From Bacillota bacterium (GTDB lineage Bacteria; Bacillota; Clostridia; Peptostreptococcales; Anaerovoracaceae): 37,188 nt of DNA. The DNA is taken from NCBI GenBank assembly GCA_029008005.1, contig JAQXIX010000052.1:1-37188 (forward strand), written 5' to 3'. The position numbers were made by a program, and so were the translations under genes. The notes beneath the pieces are model-generated. The model worked only from the letters and a program-made list of their open reading frames with translations, had not been told where the DNA came from and ran no database searches. This document shows positions 10,867-20,663 of the stretch, piece after piece; position 1 is the stretch's first letter; the number at the start of each line of letters is the position of its first letter.

Positions 10867-10899
10867 GACTGTCGCAGAAATGCGGCAGTCTTGTGTTTT
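10867..10899 (+). terminator. Rho-independent terminator after the permease gene
   Basis: GACTGTCGCA (10867-10876) pairs with TGCGGCAGTC (10881-10890) over ten base pairs with one G-U pair and a GAAA loop, followed by TTGTGTTTT. It ends only about 15 bases before the iorA start codon and overlaps the region where the iorA ribosome binding site begins. Confidence 0.75.
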
Positions 10900-10914
10900 G
10901 AAAGGAAATATCAG

Positions 10915-12738
10915 ATGCAAAAGAAATTTCTAATGGGAAATGAAGCCATGGGTTTAGGTGCTCTCGCAGCAGGAGTGAATTCTGTTTCGGGGTACCCGGG
11001 AACACCATCATCGGAAGTATTGGAGACAATAGCGAAAAACAATGATGGAAATGTTTATGTAGAATGGTCGGTAAATGAGAAAGCAGGCTTGGAAGTAGCT
11101 GCAGGTGCAGCAATGGCGGGAGGGAGAGCTCTTGTAACAATGAAACAGGTCGGTCTCAATGTTGCCTCGGACCCGCTTATGAGTCTGGCCTATGTAGGCA
11201 TTAAAGGAGGGATGGTTGTACTTGTTGCAGACGATCCCGGTCCTATTTCCTCCCAGACAGAACAGGATACCAGAACCTTCGCTATGTATTCAAAACTGCC
11301 GTGCTTCGATCCATCATCAGTACAGGAAGCATATGATATGATGATTGATGCTTTCGAGTATTCGGAGAAATACTCAACGCCGGTTATTATGAGACCGACA
11401 ACGAGAGTATGTCACGGATACAGCGATATTGATGTGCGCGACAAAGAAAGCTTTTACCGTAACAGCCCGGAGGGGTTTGTCAAAGATTCGAAATGGGTAA
11501 TTTTCCCACCTTTGGCATACAGGGCTCATAACATGATAGAACCCCGTAATGAGGCAGTCGGCGAAGAGTTTTCTTCGTATAAATACAATATAAGTGATAT
11601 GCGCAGCGGAAGTACGGGAATAGTCAGCAGCGGCATAAGCTGGACTTACGTAAAGGAGGCCTTAGAAGCTGACAATGAAATAAAAAACGAAGCGCCTTCA
11701 CTTCTGAAAATATCAACACCTTTCCCATTCCCGGAGAAGCTGGCGGCAGATTTCCTGAAAGGAAAGGAAAAAGTGATTTGTATTGAGGAACTGGATCCCT
11801 TTATTGAAAGACAGCTGCTTCAGATATGCGGCAAATACAAAATTCCTGTTGAGATAAAGGGTAAGCTTTCACATGATGTAAGACATGCAGGTGAAAATAC
11901 AAGAGACAGCGTGAGAGACGATATAAGAGAATTTCTCGGATACGAAAGATTTAATTTACAGCAGGAAGACATTGATATGCCGCAAATGCCTGCAAGGCCA
12001 CCGGTCTTATGTGCAGGATGCCCTCACAGAGCCGCCTTTTATGCAGTAAAAAAGGCAATGAAAGGGCAGAAGACCGTATTCTGTGGAGATATAGGCTGTT
12101 ATACCTTAGGAAACGCAGCACCTCTCGATATGGTCGACACATGCCTTTGTATGGGTGCGGGAGTAAATCAGGCACAGGGCATAATGCACATGGAACCTGA
12201 CAGAAAGTGCTTTGCCTTCGTAGGAGATTCAACATTTTTCGCTTCTGCTGTATCCGGAGCAATTAACAGTGTATATAACGGCGCAGATATGACTCTCGTC
12301 ATTCTCGACAACAGCACGACGGCAATGACAGGTCATCAGCCTCATCCGGGCACGGGAATGACCATGATGGGCGAAATGGGAAACAGGATCAGCATTACGT
12401 CAGTACTGGAAGGAATCGGACTCGCTGCAGTGGAAACAGCAGATCCGCTTAATCTCGATGAAGCAGTTGAGACAGTAAAGCGAATAAGTTCAATAAAAGG
12501 TACGAAAGCGATAATATTCAAGTCGCCTTGTATAGCAATAGAGAAGAAAAAAGCATATCTTGAAGTAACAGAGGATAAGTGCAAAGGCTGCAGACAGTGT
12601 GTTGATACAATAGGATGTCCTGCCATAGGTTTTGCTGACGGAAAGGCATATGTTGACTCGGGACTTTGCAATGCCTGCGGACTTTGCAGTCAGATATGCG
12701 CATTTGATGCCTTTGACAGAAAGGAGGGCAGCTTATGA
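10915..12738 (+). CDS. iorA: Indolepyruvate ferredoxin oxidoreductase, alpha subunit
   Basis: Catalytic subunit of the cytoplasmic, oxygen-sensitive enzyme that converts aryl-2-oxo acids (indolepyruvate, phenylpyruvate) plus CoA to aryl-acetyl-CoA and CO2, reducing ferredoxin. The product is 607 residues from the ATG at 10915 (MQKKFLMGNEAMGLGALAAG), which is preceded by AAAGGAAA; an in-frame TTG at 10891 lies in the terminator tail and is rejected. It shows the pyrimidine-binding region (GYPGTPSSEV), CAGCPHRAAF with the conserved cysteines, the thiamine diphosphate/Mg motif (GDSTFFASAVSGAINSVYN, then ILDNSTTAMTGHQPHPG), and a C-terminal two-cluster ferredoxin domain (CKGCRQC ... CNACGLCSQIC). 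In the first cluster motif the spacing to the fourth cysteine is longer than the C-x2-C-x2-C-x3-C norm, as is common in IorA. It overlaps iorB by 4 bases. Confidence 0.95.
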   Translation: MQKKFLMGNEAMGLGALAAGVNSVSGYPGTPSSEVLETIAKNNDGNVYVEWSVNEKAGLEVAAGAAMAGGRALVTMKQVGLNVASDPLMSLAYVGIKGGMVVLVADDPGPISSQTEQDTRTFAMYSKLPCFDPSSVQEAYDMMIDAFEYSEKYSTPVIMRPTTRVCHGYSDIDVRDKESFYRNSPEGFVKDSKWVIFPPLAYRAHNMIEPRNEAVGEEFSSYKYNISDMRSGSTGIVSSGISWTYVKEALEADNEIKNEAPSLLKISTPFPFPEKLAADFLKGKEKVICIEELDPFIERQLLQICGKYKIPVEIKGKLSHDVRHAGENTRDSVRDDIREFLGYERFNLQQEDIDMPQMPARPPVLCAGCPHRAAFYAVKKAMKGQKTVFCGDIGCYTLGNAAPLDMVDTCLCMGAGVNQAQGIMHMEPDRKCFAFVGDSTFFASAVSGAINSVYNGADMTLVILDNSTTAMTGHQPHPGTGMTMMGEMGNRISITSVLEGIGLAAVETADPLNLDEAVETVKRISSIKGTKAIIFKSPCIAIEKKKAYLEVTEDKCKGCRQCVDTIGCPAIGFADGKAYVDSGLCNACGLCSQICAFDAFDRKEGSL

Positions 12739-13319
12739 GTTTGAATATTCTCTTGTGTGGAGTCGGAGGACAGGGAATAGTGCTGGCTTCGAGGATACTG
12801 GCAACGGCAGCGATGAACAGAGGACAGAATGTGCTGAGTGCCGAAACAATAGGTATGGCACAGAAGGGCGGAAGCGTATTCAGTCACGTTAGAGTGGGCG
12901 ATAAAATAGAGTCGCCTATGATTTCGCTTGGAGAAGCGGATATAATAATCGGATTTGAACCTGCCGAAGCGGCGAGAATGATGCCGTATCTCAGAGAAGG
13001 CGGAAGTGTGGTTGTATGCAGTGACCCTGTAATGCCGGCACTGGCATCTCTTACAGGCAATACATATTCCGGAGATGAAATGATAACCTATATAAGGAAG
13101 AAAGCCGGGACGGTAACAGTTGTGGCCGGTAACGAGCGCTGCAGGAAAGCAGGTTCTCCGAAGGTGCTGAATCTCATTATGCTGGGAGAAGCAGTAAGAT
13201 GCGGTGAGCTGGGATTCACTATGGATGAAATCAAAGAAGCACTCAGACAGAAAGTTAAGCCGGAGTTTCTTGAACTGAATATGAAGGCGCTCGAACAACA
13301 AGGAGGGGTGATATGGTAA
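12735..13319 (+). CDS. iorB: Indolepyruvate ferredoxin oxidoreductase, beta subunit
   Basis: Partner subunit of IorA, belonging to the gamma-domain family of 2-oxoacid:ferredoxin oxidoreductases. The 194 residues start with LLCGVGGQGIVLASRILATAA, the family signature, and contain the expected AETIGMAQKGGSVFSHVRVG and GFEPAEAARMMPYL segments. The length is normal. The start overlaps the iorA stop by 4 bases and the end overlaps paaK by 7 bases, so the three genes are translated as a coupled set and subunits are probably made in equal amounts. Confidence 0.94.
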   Translation: MSLNILLCGVGGQGIVLASRILATAAMNRGQNVLSAETIGMAQKGGSVFSHVRVGDKIESPMISLGEADIIIGFEPAEAARMMPYLREGGSVVVCSDPVMPALASLTGNTYSGDEMITYIRKKAGTVTVVAGNERCRKAGSPKVLNLIMLGEAVRCGELGFTMDEIKEALRQKVKPEFLELNMKALEQQGGVIW

Positions 13320-14551
13320 TAAACGAAAAACAGATACTTCAGGTAAACGACAGAATACAGGCACTGCTCAAGGCAGACAATTTCTACGGAAGGAGACTGA
13401 AGGAAGCAGGAATAGAAGGAATCAGCAGTGCTGAAGACTTTGAGAAGCTACCGTTTTCAGAAAAGGATGATCTCAGAAATGCATATCCCCTGGGACTCAT
13501 GACGGCGCCTGAAGAAGAAATTGTTAGAATACACTCTTCTTCGGGAACAACAGGTCTGCCTGTAATAATTCCTTATACTAAAAAGGATGTTGACGACTGG
13601 GCGGTACAGTTTGCCCGCTGCTACGAAATGGCAGGTATCACGCCGATGGACAGGATTCAGATTACTCCCGGATACGGTCTTTGGACTGCGGGAATAGGAT
13701 TTCAGGCAGGAGCGGAGAAAATGGGTGCGATGACGGTCCCGATGGGTCCGGGGAACACCGAGAAACAGCTTAAGATGATGCAGGATATGAAGAGCACCGT
13801 AATATGTGCCACATCATCATACGCGCTTTTGCTTGCGGAAGAAATAGAAAAGCTCGGTATAAGAGATAAGATATATCTGAAGAAAGGCGTTATCGGCTCA
13901 GAACGCTGGGGAGAAAAAATGCGTGCAGCGATACAGCAAAAGCTGGGAATCGAATTATATGACATTTACGGACTGACAGAAATATACGGACCGGGTATCG
14001 GAATAAACTGTACTGAAGGTTCGGGAATCCACTACTGGGATGACTACATATATATAGAGATAATAGATCCTGTCACGGGTGAAGTTCTTCCTGACGGTGA
14101 AGAAGGAGAAATAGTAATTACCACACTGGTGAAGGAAGGGGCACCTCTGATTCGCTACAGAACACATGATTTGTCGAGGATTATTCCGGAAGCCTGCACA
14201 TGCGGAAGTGCTTACCCGAGAATTGACAGAATAAAAGGAAGGACTGACGATATGATGAAGATTCACGGAGTCAATGTGTTCCCTGCGCAGATTGAAGAGG
14301 TTCTCAAATCTTTTGACGAAATAAACAGCGAATATCAGATAAGGATGTCACATCTCGAAGGAAAAGACACCATGAGAATATATGTTGAAACAACAGGAGA
14401 TGTGGATTTCGCTGATCTCAGCATCAGAATTGCAGCGAAAATTAAAAGCGCCATAGGTTTCACTCCGATTGTGAAGCCGGTTGAGGTAGGACTGCTTCCG
14501 AGAAGCGAGAAAAAGACAAGCAGGGTTATTGACGAGAGATATGAAGACTAG
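13313..14551 (+). CDS. paaK: Phenylacetate-CoA ligase family, AMP-forming
   Basis: Adenylate-forming enzyme interconverting an aryl acid, ATP and CoA with aryl-CoA, AMP and PPi. The 412 residues contain the phosphate loop HSSSGTTGLPV (about residues 78-88), the adenine-binding YDIYGLTEIYGPG, and the late RTHDLS and KGRTDDMMKIHGVNVFP motifs carrying hinge and catalytic-loop positions. It is slightly shorter than PaaK of aerobic phenylacetate degraders. No other paa gene is near, so it is not part of aerobic phenylacetate breakdown. Coupled to iorAB, it either releases aryl acids from the Ior product or activates exogenous aryl acids for reductive carboxylation by Ior; sequence does not decide. 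Confidence 0.9.
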   Translation: MVINEKQILQVNDRIQALLKADNFYGRRLKEAGIEGISSAEDFEKLPFSEKDDLRNAYPLGLMTAPEEEIVRIHSSSGTTGLPVIIPYTKKDVDDWAVQFARCYEMAGITPMDRIQITPGYGLWTAGIGFQAGAEKMGAMTVPMGPGNTEKQLKMMQDMKSTVICATSSYALLLAEEIEKLGIRDKIYLKKGVIGSERWGEKMRAAIQQKLGIELYDIYGLTEIYGPGIGINCTEGSGIHYWDDYIYIEIIDPVTGEVLPDGEEGEIVITTLVKEGAPLIRYRTHDLSRIIPEACTCGSAYPRIDRIKGRTDDMMKIHGVNVFPAQIEEVLKSFDEINSEYQIRMSHLEGKDTMRIYVETTGDVDFADLSIRIAAKIKSAIGFTPIVKPVEVGLLPRSEKKTSRVIDERYED

Positions 14552-14705: not shown

Positions 14706-16631
14706 ATGGGCACTATACTTTTTATGATCTTGTTCCCGATGGTAATTGCCTTTATTCTTTTAGTAGCAAAATCTGACAAAGCAAGAGACGTGATTGTCAT
14801 AGGAGCTGCTGCAGTAATAGCAGCCATGTCAATTGTCGTCGCCATTCTTTTCGCCGCAGGAGGAATTGAATATTTCTCATTTGACGGTGAAGTTGTGAGT
14901 TACATTATGATGGCGATAGAAGTAGTACTTTGTATCTATATTATCGTCATTGGTGTTAAGCACAGAAAATGGCTTGCTGCAATATTTGCTGCTGTTCAGA
15001 CTCCGCTTATGGTGTGGTTTGAACTGAATGAAGGACATCACATTGCTATTGAGAGCAACATGTACATTGACAAATTGTCAGTAATCATGATTCTGATTAT
15101 CGGTATTATCGGATCTCTGATTACAGTGTACGCACTGGGATACATGAAGGATTATCAGCATCATGCGGAGGGTAAGGACAGAAGACCTTGGTTCTTCTTC
15201 GTAATGTTCCTGTTCCTTGGCGCAATGGTTGGCCTGGTAACTTCCAACAACATGATCTGGATGTACTTCTTCTGGGAAATCACAAGTCTTTCATCATTCT
15301 GGCTCATTGGTTTCACAAAGACAGAAGAAGCTACAAACAACGCTTTCAGAGCACTGATTATGAACTTACTCGGTGGTCTCGGATTCGCGGTAGGTATCGT
15401 AATACTCGGAATGGTATTCGGAACAGTAGAGCTGAGCACAATGCTTACAATCGGAGCCATCTACGGAGATATGGTAGCAATTCCTGCAGCATTCTTCGCA
15501 TTCGCCGGAATTACGAAGGCTGCTCAGATGCCGTTTAACAGCTGGCTCCTCGGAGCGATGGTTGCTCCTACACCTACATCAGCACTGCTCCATTCATCAA
15601 CAATGGTTAAGGCTGGCGTATTTATGATTATCAAGCTGGCACCGGTTCTCGGAATGAGCAATTTCGCCGGCATTATGGTTATGATGGTTGGAGGTATCAC
15701 ATTCCTCTTCGCATCATGCGCTGCAATTTCACAGAACAATGCCAAGAGAGTTCTGGCATATTCAACAATTGCAAACCTCGGTCTGATTGTTGCCTGCGGC
15801 GGCGTTGGTACTGCCGGAGCTGTATGGGCAGGAATCATGCTTATTATATTCCACGCAATCACTAAGTCACTGCTGTTCCTCTGCGTAGGTACTGCAGAAC
15901 ATCACATCGGAAGCAGAATGATCGAAGATATGGATGGTCTTTTCTGCAGAATGCCTAGACTGGCAATGTGTATGATTATCGGTATTGCAGGAATGTTCCT
16001 TGCACCTTTCGGAATGCTTATTTCCAAGTGGGCCTGCATGGTATCATTCGTTGACTCAGGAAATATCCTGCTGGTTGGATTCATCTGCTTCGGAAGTGCT
16101 GTAACAGCATTCTACTGGCTCAAGTGGATGGGTAAGCTTTCAGCAGTTGTTGCTAATGAAGAAAGCATCGAAACAGGAGTTCACAAGACAGAAACATTTG
16201 TACACATCACACTTGTTGTTCTTGTAATACTCACTTGTCTGCTGTTCCCTGTTATTTCAAGTCTTTCACTGGTTCCTTATCTGGAAATGGTATTCGGAGG
16301 ACTTTCAGGAGCAATCATGTCACAGAGCAATATGGTTATCATGGTTATCATGGTTGCAGTTATTGTACTGCTGGCACTTCTGTTCTTCGGCAGAACAAAG
16401 AAGAACATCGTTCCTATTTACCTGTCAGGTGTAAATGCGGGAGACAACAGAACATATCACGGATCAATGCAGAAGGATGTTGAATTCTCATTGAGAAACT
16501 GGCACCTCGAAAAGTACTTTGGTGAGCACAAGATGAATCTCTTTGGCGGAGTACTCTGTACAGCAATGCTCGTCATCGGAATCGGATACATGGTTGCCAT
16601 ACTCGTTAGCATGATGGGAGGTGTTGCATAA
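14706..16631 (+). CDS. echA: Ech-type hydrogenase, ion-pumping membrane subunit EchA (NuoL-like)
   Basis: Large antiporter-like membrane subunit, 641 residues and about 14-16 membrane helices, homologous to NuoL/MrpA. The proton-path residues of the family are present: the glutamate in YFFWEITSLSSFWLIG, the lysine in GITKAAQMPFNSWLLGAM, the broken-helix region TPTSALLHSSTMVKAG, and the second lysine in HAITKSLLFLCVG. It couples electron flow from ferredoxin to protons or H2 with H+ or Na+ export. It is the first gene of a six-gene operon in the canonical echABCDEF order, which distinguishes it from complex I or Mrp. It overlaps echB by one base. Confidence 0.92.
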   Translation: MGTILFMILFPMVIAFILLVAKSDKARDVIVIGAAAVIAAMSIVVAILFAAGGIEYFSFDGEVVSYIMMAIEVVLCIYIIVIGVKHRKWLAAIFAAVQTPLMVWFELNEGHHIAIESNMYIDKLSVIMILIIGIIGSLITVYALGYMKDYQHHAEGKDRRPWFFFVMFLFLGAMVGLVTSNNMIWMYFFWEITSLSSFWLIGFTKTEEATNNAFRALIMNLLGGLGFAVGIVILGMVFGTVELSTMLTIGAIYGDMVAIPAAFFAFAGITKAAQMPFNSWLLGAMVAPTPTSALLHSSTMVKAGVFMIIKLAPVLGMSNFAGIMVMMVGGITFLFASCAAISQNNAKRVLAYSTIANLGLIVACGGVGTAGAVWAGIMLIIFHAITKSLLFLCVGTAEHHIGSRMIEDMDGLFCRMPRLAMCMIIGIAGMFLAPFGMLISKWACMVSFVDSGNILLVGFICFGSAVTAFYWLKWMGKLSAVVANEESIETGVHKTETFVHITLVVLVILTCLLFPVISSLSLVPYLEMVFGGLSGAIMSQSNMVIMVIMVAVIVLLALLFFGRTKKNIVPIYLSGVNAGDNRTYHGSMQKDVEFSLRNWHLEKYFGEHKMNLFGGVLCTAMLVIGIGYMVAILVSMMGGVA

Positions 16632-17500
16632 TGGTAGTAAAGACAGTAATATCAATAATCGCATACCTCGTTCTGGCACCGCTTCTCGGCGGACTGCTCG
16701 CAGGACTTGAAAGAAAACTTTCAGCTAAGATGCAGAGAAGAATCGGACCTCCGGTACTTCAGCCGTTTTATGATGTACTGAAGCTCTTCGAGAAGGAAAA
16801 GATGACTCCGACAAGATTCCAGGATTTCTATGTACTGGTATTCCTGATTTTCATCATCGCTTCCGGAGTGATTTTCTTCGCAGGCGGAGATCTTCTTCTC
16901 GTAATATTCACACTTACACTTGCAACTGCATTCCTTATCATTGCAGCATACTCATCAAATTCACCTTACGCTCAGGCAGGTGCACAGAGAGAACTGCTTG
17001 CTATGATGGCTTATGAACCAATGGTTCTTATTACAATCATCGGTTTCTACATGTTCCACGGAAGCTTTTGCGTTAGAGACATTATGGCCGGCGGCCAGAT
17101 GTCATTACTGCCTATGCTGGGAATCTTCGTTGGCTGGATGTTCATCCTGACACTGAAGTTCAGAAAGTCACCGTTTGACCTGAGTATGTCACACCATGCT
17201 CACCAGGAACTGGTTAGAGGTATGACTACTGAATTCGTTGGAGGAACAATGGGTCTCATCGAAATCGCTCACTGGTATGAAAACGTATACCTGCTCGGTT
17301 TCGTATTCCTGTTCTTCGCTAACGGAACAGCTCTCGGCTGGATTCTCGGTATTGTAGTTGCTGTGGTTGCATACTTCTTCGAAGTATTCATCGACAACTG
17401 CTTCGCGAGAATGAAGTGGGAATTTGCCTTCAAATCATCATGGGTAATCGGTGTTGTTGTAGGCATGGTTAATTTATTAGTATTATACTTATGTTTCTAA
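16631..17500 (+). CDS. echB: Ech-type hydrogenase, membrane subunit EchB (NuoH-like)
   Basis: Membrane subunit linking the hydrogenase arm to the pump, 289 residues with about eight membrane helices. The NuoH/HycD signatures are clear: RRIGPPVLQPFYDVLKLFEKE near residue 36, QRELLAMMAYEPM in the middle, and SPFDLSMSHHAHQELVRGM with the acidic/histidine-rich loop. The latter two line the ion entry path in complex I. Start and preceding stop share one base (TAATG). The stop is followed by a ribosome binding site (AAGGAGGTGA) for echC. Confidence 0.93.
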   Translation: MVVKTVISIIAYLVLAPLLGGLLAGLERKLSAKMQRRIGPPVLQPFYDVLKLFEKEKMTPTRFQDFYVLVFLIFIIASGVIFFAGGDLLLVIFTLTLATAFLIIAAYSSNSPYAQAGAQRELLAMMAYEPMVLITIIGFYMFHGSFCVRDIMAGGQMSLLPMLGIFVGWMFILTLKFRKSPFDLSMSHHAHQELVRGMTTEFVGGTMGLIEIAHWYENVYLLGFVFLFFANGTALGWILGIVVAVVAYFFEVFIDNCFARMKWEFAFKSSWVIGVVVGMVNLLVLYLCF

Positions 17501-17512
17501 GGAGGTGAAGAA

Positions 17513-18082
17513 ATGTCAGCATATGTAACAAAATCACCTTGGGTCGTTCATTATGACGGATCAAGCTGTAACGGATGCGATATCGAAGTTCTGGCATGTC
17601 TTACTCCTATGTACGACGTAGAAAGATTCGGTATTATCAACTGCGGTAACCCTAAGCACGCAGATGTATTTCTGGTTACCGGTTCTGTAAACGAACAGAA
17701 TAAAGATGTAATAAAGCAGATTTATGAGCAGATGCCTGAACCTAAAGTTGTTGTGGCTGTAGGAATCTGTGCATGCTCAGGCGGAGTTTTCAAGGATTGC
17801 TACAATGTACTCGGAGGAGTGGATCAGGTTATTCCTGTTGATGCATACGTTCCGGGATGTGCAGCAAGACCTGAAGCTATTATTGATGCGGTAGTCAAGG
17901 GTCTCGGAGTTCTTCAGGCGAAGAGAGACGCTATGGTGAACGCTCCGGCGAAGGCAGTGGCGGCACCGGCAGAGGCAGTAGCTCCTGTTGAAAAAGCTGA
18001 TGCTGAACCTGTTGCTAAGGGAAGCTTTCCGCCAATTTTCACAATGGCAGAAATTAAAACAAACTATAAGGTAAGCAAGTAA
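17513..18082 (+). CDS. echC: Ech-type hydrogenase small subunit EchC (NuoB-like)
   Basis: Peripheral electron-transfer subunit carrying one [4Fe-4S] cluster next to the NiFe site. Cluster-ligand cysteines are visible as CNGC (C19, C22), GICACSGG (C86, C88 region) and VPGCAARPE (C116). The NuoB-like core ends near residue 140. It is followed by about 48 extra residues: an Ala/Pro/Glu/Val-rich linker and a conserved-looking end containing FPPIFTMAEIKTNYKVSK. EchC homologues I know usually stop soon after the core, so this tail is unusual. It is separated by 12 and 15 bases from its neighbours. Confidence 0.93.
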   Translation: MSAYVTKSPWVVHYDGSSCNGCDIEVLACLTPMYDVERFGIINCGNPKHADVFLVTGSVNEQNKDVIKQIYEQMPEPKVVVAVGICACSGGVFKDCYNVLGGVDQVIPVDAYVPGCAARPEAIIDAVVKGLGVLQAKRDAMVNAPAKAVAAPAEAVAPVEKADAEPVAKGSFPPIFTMAEIKTNYKVSK

Positions 18083-18097
18083 AGGAGGGAAAGAATA

Positions 18098-18460
18098 ATG
18101 AGCGAAAGAGTTATTGCTGGACAGAACTTTGAAACCGTTGAACTTTCCCAGCTTATCTCGAAAGTTAGTGATAAGAAGGAAGACGGTTACAGATTAGGTC
18201 AGATTTGTGCAGTAAACCTTGATGATGATACTTATGAAATCATCTATTCATTTGATAAAGGTCATGTTCTGCAGAACTTAAGACTTATAATCGGAATCGA
18301 CGAAGAGGTTGAAAGTGTAACAGGCATTTACTGGCCGGCTTTCATCTATGAAAACGAAATTCATGACCTTTTCGGTGTAAAATTCAATCATAGTGCATTA
18401 GACTATCAGGGAACATTCTTCAAAGTTGCCGAAGAAACTCCTTGGAAGCCGAAGAAATAG
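18098..18460 (+). CDS. echD: Ech-type hydrogenase subunit EchD (NuoC-like)
   Basis: Short accessory subunit of 120 residues homologous to the 30-kDa NuoC subunit. The recognisable segment is VTGIYWPAFIYENEIHDLFGVKFN, corresponding to the conserved E-R-E-x-x-D-x-F-G-I motif of NuoC, here with ENEIHDLFGV. No cofactor-binding cysteines are expected or seen. It stabilises the large subunit near the NiFe centre. The ribosome binding site is AAAGGAGGGAAAG and it lies between echC and echE as in other ech operons. Confidence 0.9.
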   Translation: MSERVIAGQNFETVELSQLISKVSDKKEDGYRLGQICAVNLDDDTYEIIYSFDKGHVLQNLRLIIGIDEEVESVTGIYWPAFIYENEIHDLFGVKFNHSALDYQGTFFKVAEETPWKPKK

Positions 18461-18477
18461 GAAAGGAAGGTTAGAAA

Positions 18478-19560
18478 ATGGGTAAAAGAACAATAATTCC
18501 TTTCGGACCACAGCACCCGGTGCTTCCTGAACCTATTCACCTTGACCTTGTTGTTGAGGACGAAACAGTTGTAGATGTTATTCCTTCAATAGGATACATC
18601 CACAGAGGACTGGAAAAGCTGTGTGAGACAAAGGATTACAACAAGATGGTTTATGTAATCGAACGTATCTGCGGAATCTGCAGCTTCGGTCACGGCTGGG
18701 GCGCATGTGCTTCAATCGAAGGTGCAATGGATGTTAAGATTCCTGAAAGAGCAGAATACCTTAGAACAATATTACATGAACTTTCAAGAATACACAGCCA
18801 CCTGCTGTGGCTGGGACTCCTGGCAGATGCTTTCGGATTCGAAAGTCTGTTTAACCACTGCTGGAGAGTAAGAGAAACTGTACTTGACCTGTTCGAAAAG
18901 AATACAGGCGGAAGAGTAATTTTCTCAATCTGCAAGATCGGCGGAATGAGAAAGGACATCAGCGATGAAAATCTTAAGGAAATGGCTTCTGTTCTTAACG
19001 GAATTAAATCAGAAATCAAGGAACTTACAGATGTATTTATTGCAGATGCTTCAGTACAGAACAGAATGGTAGGAGTTGGTGTTCTCACTAAGGAACAGGC
19101 AGAAGAACTCTGTACAGTAGGTCCTGTTGCAAGAGGATCCGGTATCGATCAGGATATCAGAATGAACGACGATCACGGTGTTTACGGTGAACTGGGATTC
19201 GAACCTTGCATTGAAGAAGCAGGTGACTGCATGGCAAGAACTATTGTAAGAATCAGAGAACTGTTCCAGTCTATCGAACTGATAGAAAAGGCAGTTGAGA
19301 AGATTCCTGCAGGTCCTGTGGACGTAAAGGTAAGCGGAAATGTTAACGGTGAATGCATCACTCGTATGGAACAGCCTAGAGGTGAAGCATACTACTACGC
19401 TAAGGGAGCCGGCACAAAGTTCCTGAAGAGAATGAGAGTAAGAACACCGACCAACATGAACATTCCTGGATTAGTTCAGATGCTCAAGGGTTGCGATCTG
19501 GCAGATGTACCTATTCTGGTACTCACAATCGACCCATGCATCAGCTGTACAGAAAGGTAG
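18478..19560 (+). CDS. echE: Ech-type [NiFe] hydrogenase large subunit EchE
   Basis: Catalytic subunit bearing the NiFe active site. The 360 residues include both Ni-binding cysteine pairs: RICGICSFGH (C65, C68) and DPCISC (C354, C357). The presence of all four cysteines separates it from NuoD of complex I and indicates H2 chemistry. The protein ends three residues after the last cysteine (TER), so there is no C-terminal extension to be removed by a maturation endopeptidase. The length fits group 4 hydrogenases. No hyp maturation genes are in this window. It is followed 9 bases later by echF. Confidence 0.95.
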   Translation: MGKRTIIPFGPQHPVLPEPIHLDLVVEDETVVDVIPSIGYIHRGLEKLCETKDYNKMVYVIERICGICSFGHGWGACASIEGAMDVKIPERAEYLRTILHELSRIHSHLLWLGLLADAFGFESLFNHCWRVRETVLDLFEKNTGGRVIFSICKIGGMRKDISDENLKEMASVLNGIKSEIKELTDVFIADASVQNRMVGVGVLTKEQAEELCTVGPVARGSGIDQDIRMNDDHGVYGELGFEPCIEEAGDCMARTIVRIRELFQSIELIEKAVEKIPAGPVDVKVSGNVNGECITRMEQPRGEAYYYAKGAGTKFLKRMRVRTPTNMNIPGLVQMLKGCDLADVPILVLTIDPCISCTER

Positions 19561-19569
19561 GTGTGAGTA

Positions 19570-20601
19570 GTGAGTAAACTTGTGATTATAATCGTACTGG
19601 TAGTTGCTGCTCTGATTTCTTCAGCTGTTACAACAAGACTTGGATTTTTCAAGTTTAAGAAAACTGTTTTAGGTAGCATCTTCAAGGACACAGCCTGCCA
19701 GATGTACCCTGTTGTTCAGAAAGAATGGCAGGAAAGAACAAGAGGAGCTGTAAGTATTGACGGCAACAATTGTATAGGATGCGGCATCTGTGCCAAGGTA
19801 TGTCCTACAGACGCTATCGAAGTTGATAAGGCAAACGGAACATGGACTATTGAAAGAATGCAGTGCGTTCAGTGCAGCGGATGTGTTGACAATTGTCCTA
19901 AGAATTGTCTGACAATGGAAAATCAGTACACAACTCCGGATGTTACAAAGACTGTTGATACAGTAGCAATTCCTGCAAAGGGAGCTGCCGGCGGTTCATC
20001 AGACGGCGATCTCGTTTGCAATGATACATGCGTATTCTGCGGACTCTGCGCTAAAGCATGTCCTGAAGACGCAATTAAGGTTGACAGAAAAGCTAAGAGC
20101 TGGGAAGTTGACAAGGAAGCATGTATTAAATGTGGAGCTTGTATAGACAAGTGCCCTAAGAAGAGCTTATCATTTGGTGAGGGCGGTGAATCAGCTGCAG
20201 CTGAAGACGGTCCTCTCTCATGCGACCTGGAAGTTTGCATTTACTGCGGACTTTGCGCTAAGAACTGTCCTGCCGATGCACTTGAAGTTGACAGAAAGGC
20301 TAAGAGTTGGAAGGTTGACGAGGATGCATGCATCAAGTGTGGAGTTTGCCTTGAAAAGTGCCCTAAGAAGTGTCTCGGATTCGGTAGTAATGCAGCAGCT
20401 GCAGAACCTGCAAAGAAGAGCATTCCTGTACTTGACGAGGAAAAATGCGTTTACTGCGCAGCATGTGAAAATGCATGTCCTGAAGCTGCGATTTCAGCTG
20501 AAGTTGACAACTGGACTCTGGATGCTGACAAGTGCGTTGGATGTGAAGCATGTGTAGGCGCATGTCCGGCAGTTGCACTTGAAATGAAGTCGGTAGACTA
20601 A
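19570..20601 (+). CDS. echF: Ech-type hydrogenase polyferredoxin subunit EchF with eight [4Fe-4S] motifs
   Basis: Electron-input subunit that accepts electrons from reduced ferredoxin. It starts with GTG at 19570 (preceded by AAAGGTAGGTG). Residues 4-20 are a hydrophobic, probably membrane-anchoring segment. Eight complete C-x2-C-x2-C-x3-C-P motifs form four tandem two-cluster ferredoxin domains: cysteines 68-78/99-109, 154-164/185-195, 223-233/254-264 and 293-303/322-332. Typical EchF is roughly 120-150 residues with two clusters, so this 343-residue protein is greatly enlarged. Domains 2 and 3 are near copies (VDRKAKSW.VD..ACIKCG in both), indicating internal duplication. Linkers between domains are Gly/Ser/Ala-rich. 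It ends the operon, 31 bases before a strong terminator. Confidence 0.92.
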   Translation: MSKLVIIIVLVVAALISSAVTTRLGFFKFKKTVLGSIFKDTACQMYPVVQKEWQERTRGAVSIDGNNCIGCGICAKVCPTDAIEVDKANGTWTIERMQCVQCSGCVDNCPKNCLTMENQYTTPDVTKTVDTVAIPAKGAAGGSSDGDLVCNDTCVFCGLCAKACPEDAIKVDRKAKSWEVDKEACIKCGACIDKCPKKSLSFGEGGESAAAEDGPLSCDLEVCIYCGLCAKNCPADALEVDRKAKSWKVDEDACIKCGVCLEKCPKKCLGFGSNAAAAEPAKKSIPVLDEEKCVYCAACENACPEAAISAEVDNWTLDADKCVGCEACVGACPAVALEMKSVD

Positions 20602-20631: not shown

Positions 20632-20663
20632 AAAGGGTGTTGTATTTTACAACACCCTTTTTC
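20632..20663 (+). terminator. Strong rho-independent terminator of the ech operon
   Basis: A perfect 13-base-pair stem, AAAGGGTGTTGTA (20632-20644) with TACAACACCCTTT (20648-20660), a TTT loop and a following T run. Confidence 0.92.

Follow-up and report, generated by a model that had tools for sequence, protein, structure and literature searches.

An Ech hydrogenase operon of a clostridial genome whose EchF carries eight [4Fe-4S] motifs: an ordinary core extended by added dicluster modules

The EchF subunit of the Methanosarcina barkeri Ech hydrogenase possesses two clusters. As far as the sections of the papers cited here extend, the EchF-like protein of the T. kivui Ech2 complex carries two 4Fe-4S clusters (PMC4320612), and extra FeS subunits of the CooF/HycB type add clusters between the donor and the hydrogenase in Ech-like complexes (PMC5861303, PMC4320612). 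Within the same scope, larger numbers of clusters have been described for the polyferredoxins EhaP (6 clusters), EhaQ (10 clusters) and EhbK (14 clusters), which are encoded by separate genes beside energy-converting NiFe hydrogenases (PMC3087415), and RnfB combines a transmembrane anchor, a mobile ferredoxin domain and flexible linkers with fused ferredoxin modules whose number varies among species (PMC9588780). All of these systems are already known, RnfB and the Eha/Ehb polyferredoxins being the close precedents for the protein described here. By title and abstract, in a search that covered few subscription papers, we found no paper on an EchF with a variable arm, nor one joining Ech hydrogenase, EchF and polyferredoxin.

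The stretch of DNA analysed here (the window) is 37,188 nucleotides long and comes from a Bacillota bacterium of the family Anaerovoracaceae (contig JAQXIX010000052.1). It possesses a six-gene operon, echABCDEF (14706-20601, + strand), with Pfam assignments for all six proteins, and the gene of interest is the last of the six, as the sequence-only reading had proposed in placing it at the echF position. The genes that precede ech code for an amino acid transporter-like protein, IorAB and a phenylacetate-CoA ligase-like protein. The features referred to below are as follows.

10891..13319, + strand: iorA and iorB (indolepyruvate:ferredoxin oxidoreductase), which may supply electrons from upstream of ech
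13313..14551, + strand: phenylacetate-CoA ligase-like gene with AMP-binding domains, flanked by iorB and echA
14706..16631, + strand: echA, NuoL/antiporter-like (Proton_antipo_M)
16631..17500, + strand: echB, NuoH-like (NADHdh)
17513..18082, + strand: echC, small subunit, NuoB-like (Oxidored_q6)
18098..18460, + strand: echD, NuoC-like (Complex1_30kDa)
18478..19560, + strand: echE, [NiFe] large subunit, with both CxxC ligand pairs
19570..20601, + strand: echF, eight [4Fe-4S] motifs, 343 aa
19579..19635, + strand: hydrophobic segment at the N-terminus of EchF (residues 4-22, Kyte-Doolittle mean 2.78), probably a membrane anchor
19660..19935, + strand: EchF core domain 1, residues 31-122, motifs 1-2, MbhN/NuoI-like
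20029..20157, + strand: EchF extra dicluster domain 2, motifs 3-4
20236..20364, + strand: EchF extra dicluster domain 3, motifs 5-6, near repeat of domain 2
20446..20568, + strand: EchF extra dicluster domain 4, motifs 7-8, of a type unlike domains 2-3
20632..20660, + strand: hairpin and T run, probable operon end (-17.7 kcal/mol, z -5.6); absent from the matches of a separate pattern scan

The ligand pairs of EchE (C65/C68 and C354/C357) are invariant across 16 aligned EchE sequences, and the solved structures that match EchE best belong to the MBH large subunit (6cfw_L) and to subunit 5 of formate hydrogenlyase (7z0s_E). By sequence, the complex is an Ech-type energy-converting [NiFe] hydrogenase, for which ferredoxin-dependent H2 evolution coupled to ion pumping is predicted. 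It departs from the usual description of Ech in that EchF has eight motifs instead of being a small two-cluster NuoI-like protein, but the complex overall still fits Ech. Among the upstream genes, IorA scored 711 bits (cut-off 651); IorB reached 158 of the 206 bits of its own model and is thus under that cut-off, but PF01558 is over its cut-off, while PaaK models on the ligase-like gene stayed under theirs (396 of 646 bits). A plasmid search matched 6 records, none of them over at least 80% of the query.

The echF gene has a predicted GTG start 9 nt past the last EchE codon. Its motifs, C-x2-C-x2-C-x3-C with a P after each, start at residues 68, 99, 154, 185, 223, 254, 293 and 322 (nt 19771 for the first to 20533 for the last), and in 2000 shuffles of the protein the mean number of motifs was 0.05 and the maximum 2. 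An eight-motif echF is also present in L010 (genome G250, on contig JALFNS01 together with L039), which is the nearest relative of the window with an EchE 93% identical, and in L040, a separate MAG, which makes an assembly artefact unlikely. Eight intact motifs in four tandem dicluster domains, as first read from the letters, are therefore real. Residues 31-122 match MbhN (6cfw_N), and similar stretches match NuoI-type chains; the extra modules lie outside the match and form three further dicluster domains C-terminal of the core (residues 123-343). The extra modules sit on linkers of 13-30 residues that vary in length, are of low complexity and contain much Ala, Gly, Pro and Glu. Between domains 2 and 3 the identity is 61-65% at the protein level and 68-71% at the DNA level (the ranges reflect two different domain boundaries), and the remaining five domain pairs share 34-43% protein identity. 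The protein comprises an ordinary EchF core, three dicluster modules added to it and a hydrophobic segment at its N-terminus. It shares with canonical EchF, MbhN and NuoI the place after echE and the NuoI-like core dicluster, and differs from them in everything that has been added to that core.

The NCBIfam NuoI model scored 138 bits (cut-off 113), and models for the FdxA family, EFR1, PorD/KorD and HgcB were also over cut-off, summed over the repeats. TIGR01944 (rnfB) was over its cut-off too (117 bits, cut-off 69), like several unspecific ferredoxin models via the repeats. EchF and RnfB, as far as the cited sections describe the latter, have in common that each is the point of electron entry from ferredoxin into an ion pump and combines an anchor (a probable one in EchF) and linkers with a variable number of ferredoxin modules; on the other hand EchF belongs to a different enzyme complex, its core is NuoI-like, its context is ech and not rnf, and the RnfB-type N-terminal FdI (FeS) domain is not among the 17 Pfam families found. 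The best PDB match of EchF is MvhB (9sw6_G, 4e-34), which like EhaP, EhaQ and EhbK contains tandem dicluster modules beside a NiFe hydrogenase (12 clusters in MvhB). These, however, are separate archaeal genes, whereas here the modules are joined to a NuoI-like EchF core in a bacterium; polyferredoxin models on EchF were far under cut-off (VhuB 100 of 600 bits, FwdF 143 of 375 bits), and no Eha or Ehb family appeared among the 25 listed of 107 matching NCBIfam families. CooF and HycB are likewise separate subunits, whereas the clusters in the window extend EchF itself. A gene in the EchF position can conceal a polyferredoxin arm.

Motif number was surveyed by searching for echE and counting motifs in the FeS frame behind it; stop-to-stop frames were used, which leaves the start codons of the surveyed EchF proteins unestablished. 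Matches were obtained in 34 of 49 genomes of the genus (at 1e-100), 111 of 296 of the family (1e-30; 30 loci and 40 further places taken), 62 of 393 of the order (1e-80, every one in the host's own family), 40 of 391 of the class (1e-80; 28 new loci examined) and 182 of 398 of the phylum (1e-60; 27 new loci examined), and the loci examined are a part of the matches per search, mostly the best-scoring. Repeated loci and two EchE-like loci (L079 and L080, which are 37-39% identical and lack an FeS frame within 300 nt) were excluded before counting; L081, which is without NiFe ligands, was included in the counts and excluded from the tree. The total came to 138 distinct loci, of which 136 are untruncated, the two truncated ones being kept in the 138 only.

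Two motifs were found in 83 of the 136 untruncated loci, four in 24, six in 13, eight in 14 and ten in 2. All 27 loci from the rest of the phylum have two, as do 27 from other families of the class alongside a single six-motif locus (L126), making 54 of 55 examined loci outside the host's family. Within that family the 33 other genera gave two motifs in 27 loci, four in 22 and six in 1 (one truncated), and the host's own genus gave eight in 13, six in 11, ten in 2, four in 2 and two in 2 (one truncated), so that 26 of its 30 untruncated loci have six to ten. The eight-motif locus L040 belongs to a Bacillota MAG without a family label. EchE proteins of the 4-10-motif loci in the family are about 67-93% identical to that of the window. 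Two motifs are the usual state, four are common in the family, and six to ten are typical of the genus. EchF had been taken beforehand to be normally a two-cluster protein, and this was borne out; among the loci examined most clostridial echF genes do not already have eight motifs, and the novelty claimed for eight holds against the usual state of two but not inside the genus, where expanded forms are ordinary.

The survey also turned up divergent relatives. L081 (G210:C6) and G068:C79, in the same genus, encode EchE-like proteins of 38-39% identity; that of L081 is without both NiFe ligand pairs and has a 2-motif EchF-like frame behind it, and this type of complex, Ech-related by sequence, may perhaps no longer be a hydrogenase. 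In L013 (2561-3787), L089 and L092, all of the host's genus, Ala/Glu/Pro-rich stretches of EchF are followed by an additional C-terminal segment that is probably helical, and a Pfam scan of this segment from L013 and L092 gave no convincing match. The matched end of EchE in L020 (G293) deviates (IDRC versus IDPCISCTER elsewhere), possibly through a frameshift or assembly error in the MAG.

As to how the modules arose, the sequence-only reading had proposed a polyferredoxin fused into Ech. Nothing we found points to a methanogen-type gene: the core stays and domains are added two motifs per step. In a tree of 160 domains a single change parts core from extra domains; additions stand behind the core in motif pairs, and motif counts are even in 138 of 138 loci. 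Fusion with a separate polyferredoxin gene is unsupported given that single core/extra change and the existence of 4- and 6-motif steps. Domains 2 and 3 score 156-158 against the core and 81-116 against two free ferredoxins of their own genome, and for domain 4 the scores are 118 with one free ferredoxin and 109 with the core, a gap too small to rely on. In genus loci with 6-10 motifs the last domain falls in one group in 20 of 26 (support 61), apart from most middle domains. On the EchE tree, a quick tree with 52 of 131 inner branches well supported, motif number requires 21 changes, and two versus more requires 9.

Domains 2 and 3 had been noted as products of a duplication, and near repeats they are, but the event is not private to this species. 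The counterparts in L010 are 91% and 81% identical to window domains 2 and 3, which in the same comparison share 65% with each other; the duplication therefore predates the split of window and L010, and a recent duplication in the window species is rejected. Domains 2 and 3 of L011 share 93% DNA identity, and by sequence that duplication is recent or homogenised, which indicates that module turnover is continuing elsewhere in the genus. In L126 the core groups with the 2-motif cores of L128 and L133, which belong to a different family within that class, and this suggests that the expansion arose a second time; against this, its extra domains join at the base of the extra-domain group, so that the origin may instead be shared with the host's family. 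L126 stems from one MAG (71% complete) and is the sole EchE match among 16 genomes searched in its family.

What might such an arm do? We put at roughly an even chance the reading that the extra modules are tethered, captive ferredoxins that collect electrons for Ech. The EchF core would act as EchF does elsewhere. One of the extra modules would receive electrons from reduced free ferredoxin, or straight from a 2-oxoacid:ferredoxin oxidoreductase; electrons would move among the modules and reach the outer cluster of the core by tethered collision, from where they would pass through EchC to the NiFe site and H2, with EchA and EchB pumping ions during H2 formation. By offering more than one place to dock, the arm would increase the capture of electrons in a cell that has many enzymes reducing ferredoxin and, as far as found, a single pump oxidising it. 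The closest working model for such an arm would be RnfB, the Rnf entry subunit.

Conservation bears on whether the modules are used at all. All 32 motif cysteines are invariant in 13 aligned eight-motif EchF proteins (14 in the survey), and 53 expanded genes with 306 motifs contain no additional copy with one Cys lost, a test that is blind to modules losing both motifs at once. Between window and L010, dN/dS is 0.04, 0.04, 0.16 and 0.06 for EchF domains 1-4 and 0.06 for echE, rough values because dS is above 1 for all EchF domains but one. If modules were gained by duplication and kept without benefit since they are harmless, a labile module number, the lack of a link to Rnf and genus members with only two or four motifs would all be expected, but the missing one-Cys-lost copies, the invariably even counts and the low dN/dS in each module make this neutral explanation unlikely. 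The same observations, along with the NuoI-like core and the variable low-complexity linkers, argue for captive ferredoxins.

Less uniform is the hydrophobic segment before the first motif. The N-terminal anchor claimed at the outset is real as a hydrophobic segment, but no more than 18 of 138 loci have it. These 18 carry six or eight motifs and, apart from L040, come from the host's genus; they make up 18 of the 29 loci that have at least six motifs, as against 0 of 109 others. The EchE tree requires 2 changes for the segment, which L010 and L093 lack.

The host genome (1.63 Mb, 53 contigs) is 86% complete, which renders absences soft. POR-gamma loci number seven, the window IorB included, and the NiFe maturation gene HypD is present (433 bits, cut-off 25); no RnfC was over cut-off (one match at 21.3 of 25.6 bits), and no [FeFe]-hydrogenase large subunit was matched. 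We infer from sequence that the host is an amino acid fermenter with many ferredoxin reducers and with Ech as its ferredoxin oxidiser, as far as found. Strong RnfC matches (E below about 1e-24) accompany two motifs in 13 of 26 cases, four in 5 of 22, six in 4 of 10, eight in 0 of 7 and ten in 2 of 2; RnfC presence does not follow motif number, and an explanation of the expansion by Rnf absence is unsupported. L003 (G000:C35) encodes a NuoF/HydB-like protein, so named from its sequence alone, with a C-terminal two-motif domain, although no [FeFe]-hydrogenase was found. L002 (G000:C35:7006-7704), a frame of 455 residues, has six plain motifs and would be an unusual multi-FeS protein; close to it is a frame of 1202 residues that contains a POR domain.

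IorAB matches were present in 1 of 21 other ech neighbourhoods (L039, the nearest relative; 3 of the 21 had too little upstream DNA), and an explanation of the expansion by IorAB linkage is unsupported. This count also weighs on the idea of a dedicated wire, in which a fixed chain docks one partner, for instance IorAB or a pyruvate:ferredoxin oxidoreductase, and takes its electrons by direct transfer, with no need of free ferredoxin. IorAB does precede ech in the window and in L039, and in L177 a 4-motif echF is followed by a 1078-aa frame with two motifs that is PFOR-like by its first residues; yet adjoining oxidoreductase genes are unconserved, module number shifts among close relatives and the linkers are low-complexity and variable in length, and we regard a fixed wire as improbable. 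We also see little likelihood in an electron reservoir, with extra clusters storing electrons during bursts of ferredoxin reduction and releasing them later while docking is unchanged, since up to ten cluster sites per subunit and many ferredoxin-reducing enzymes in the genome would suit it but, by general reasoning, the six added one-electron sites are small against the free ferredoxin pool of the cell, and the hydrophobic anchor is left unexplained.

For captive ferredoxins, then, speak the seven POR-gamma loci, HypD, the missing RnfC and [FeFe]-hydrogenase matches, IorAB upstream and the RnfB precedent; against them stand the absence of a link between motif number and Rnf, the single IorAB recurrence, the segment missing in L010, the genus members with only two or four motifs, the incompleteness of the genome and the high dS. 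More tentatively, and in our judgement somewhat doubtful, the arm may be a membrane-anchored ferredoxin antenna, modular and adjustable within one clostridial genus, by which one pump drains many 2-oxoacid oxidoreductases. Were this true, Ech would have reached the modular solution of RnfB in another enzyme, possibly twice (in the host's family and in L126). Why some redox enzymes hold more clusters than a direct path requires is a long-standing question, and in the present case otherwise similar complexes differ in a single subunit, with 2, 4, 6, 8 or 10 motifs on a constant core, a graded natural series that would permit a direct test of how added clusters affect electron capture, rate and energy yield.

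Two minor observations concern the other ech genes and their surroundings. The last ~50 residues of EchC (17513-18082) form a tail in which Ala, Pro and Glu abound, resembling the EchF linkers. Behind echF in L181-L184 there are long frames whose first residues look HypF-like by eye, and maturation genes may adjoin ech in some relatives.
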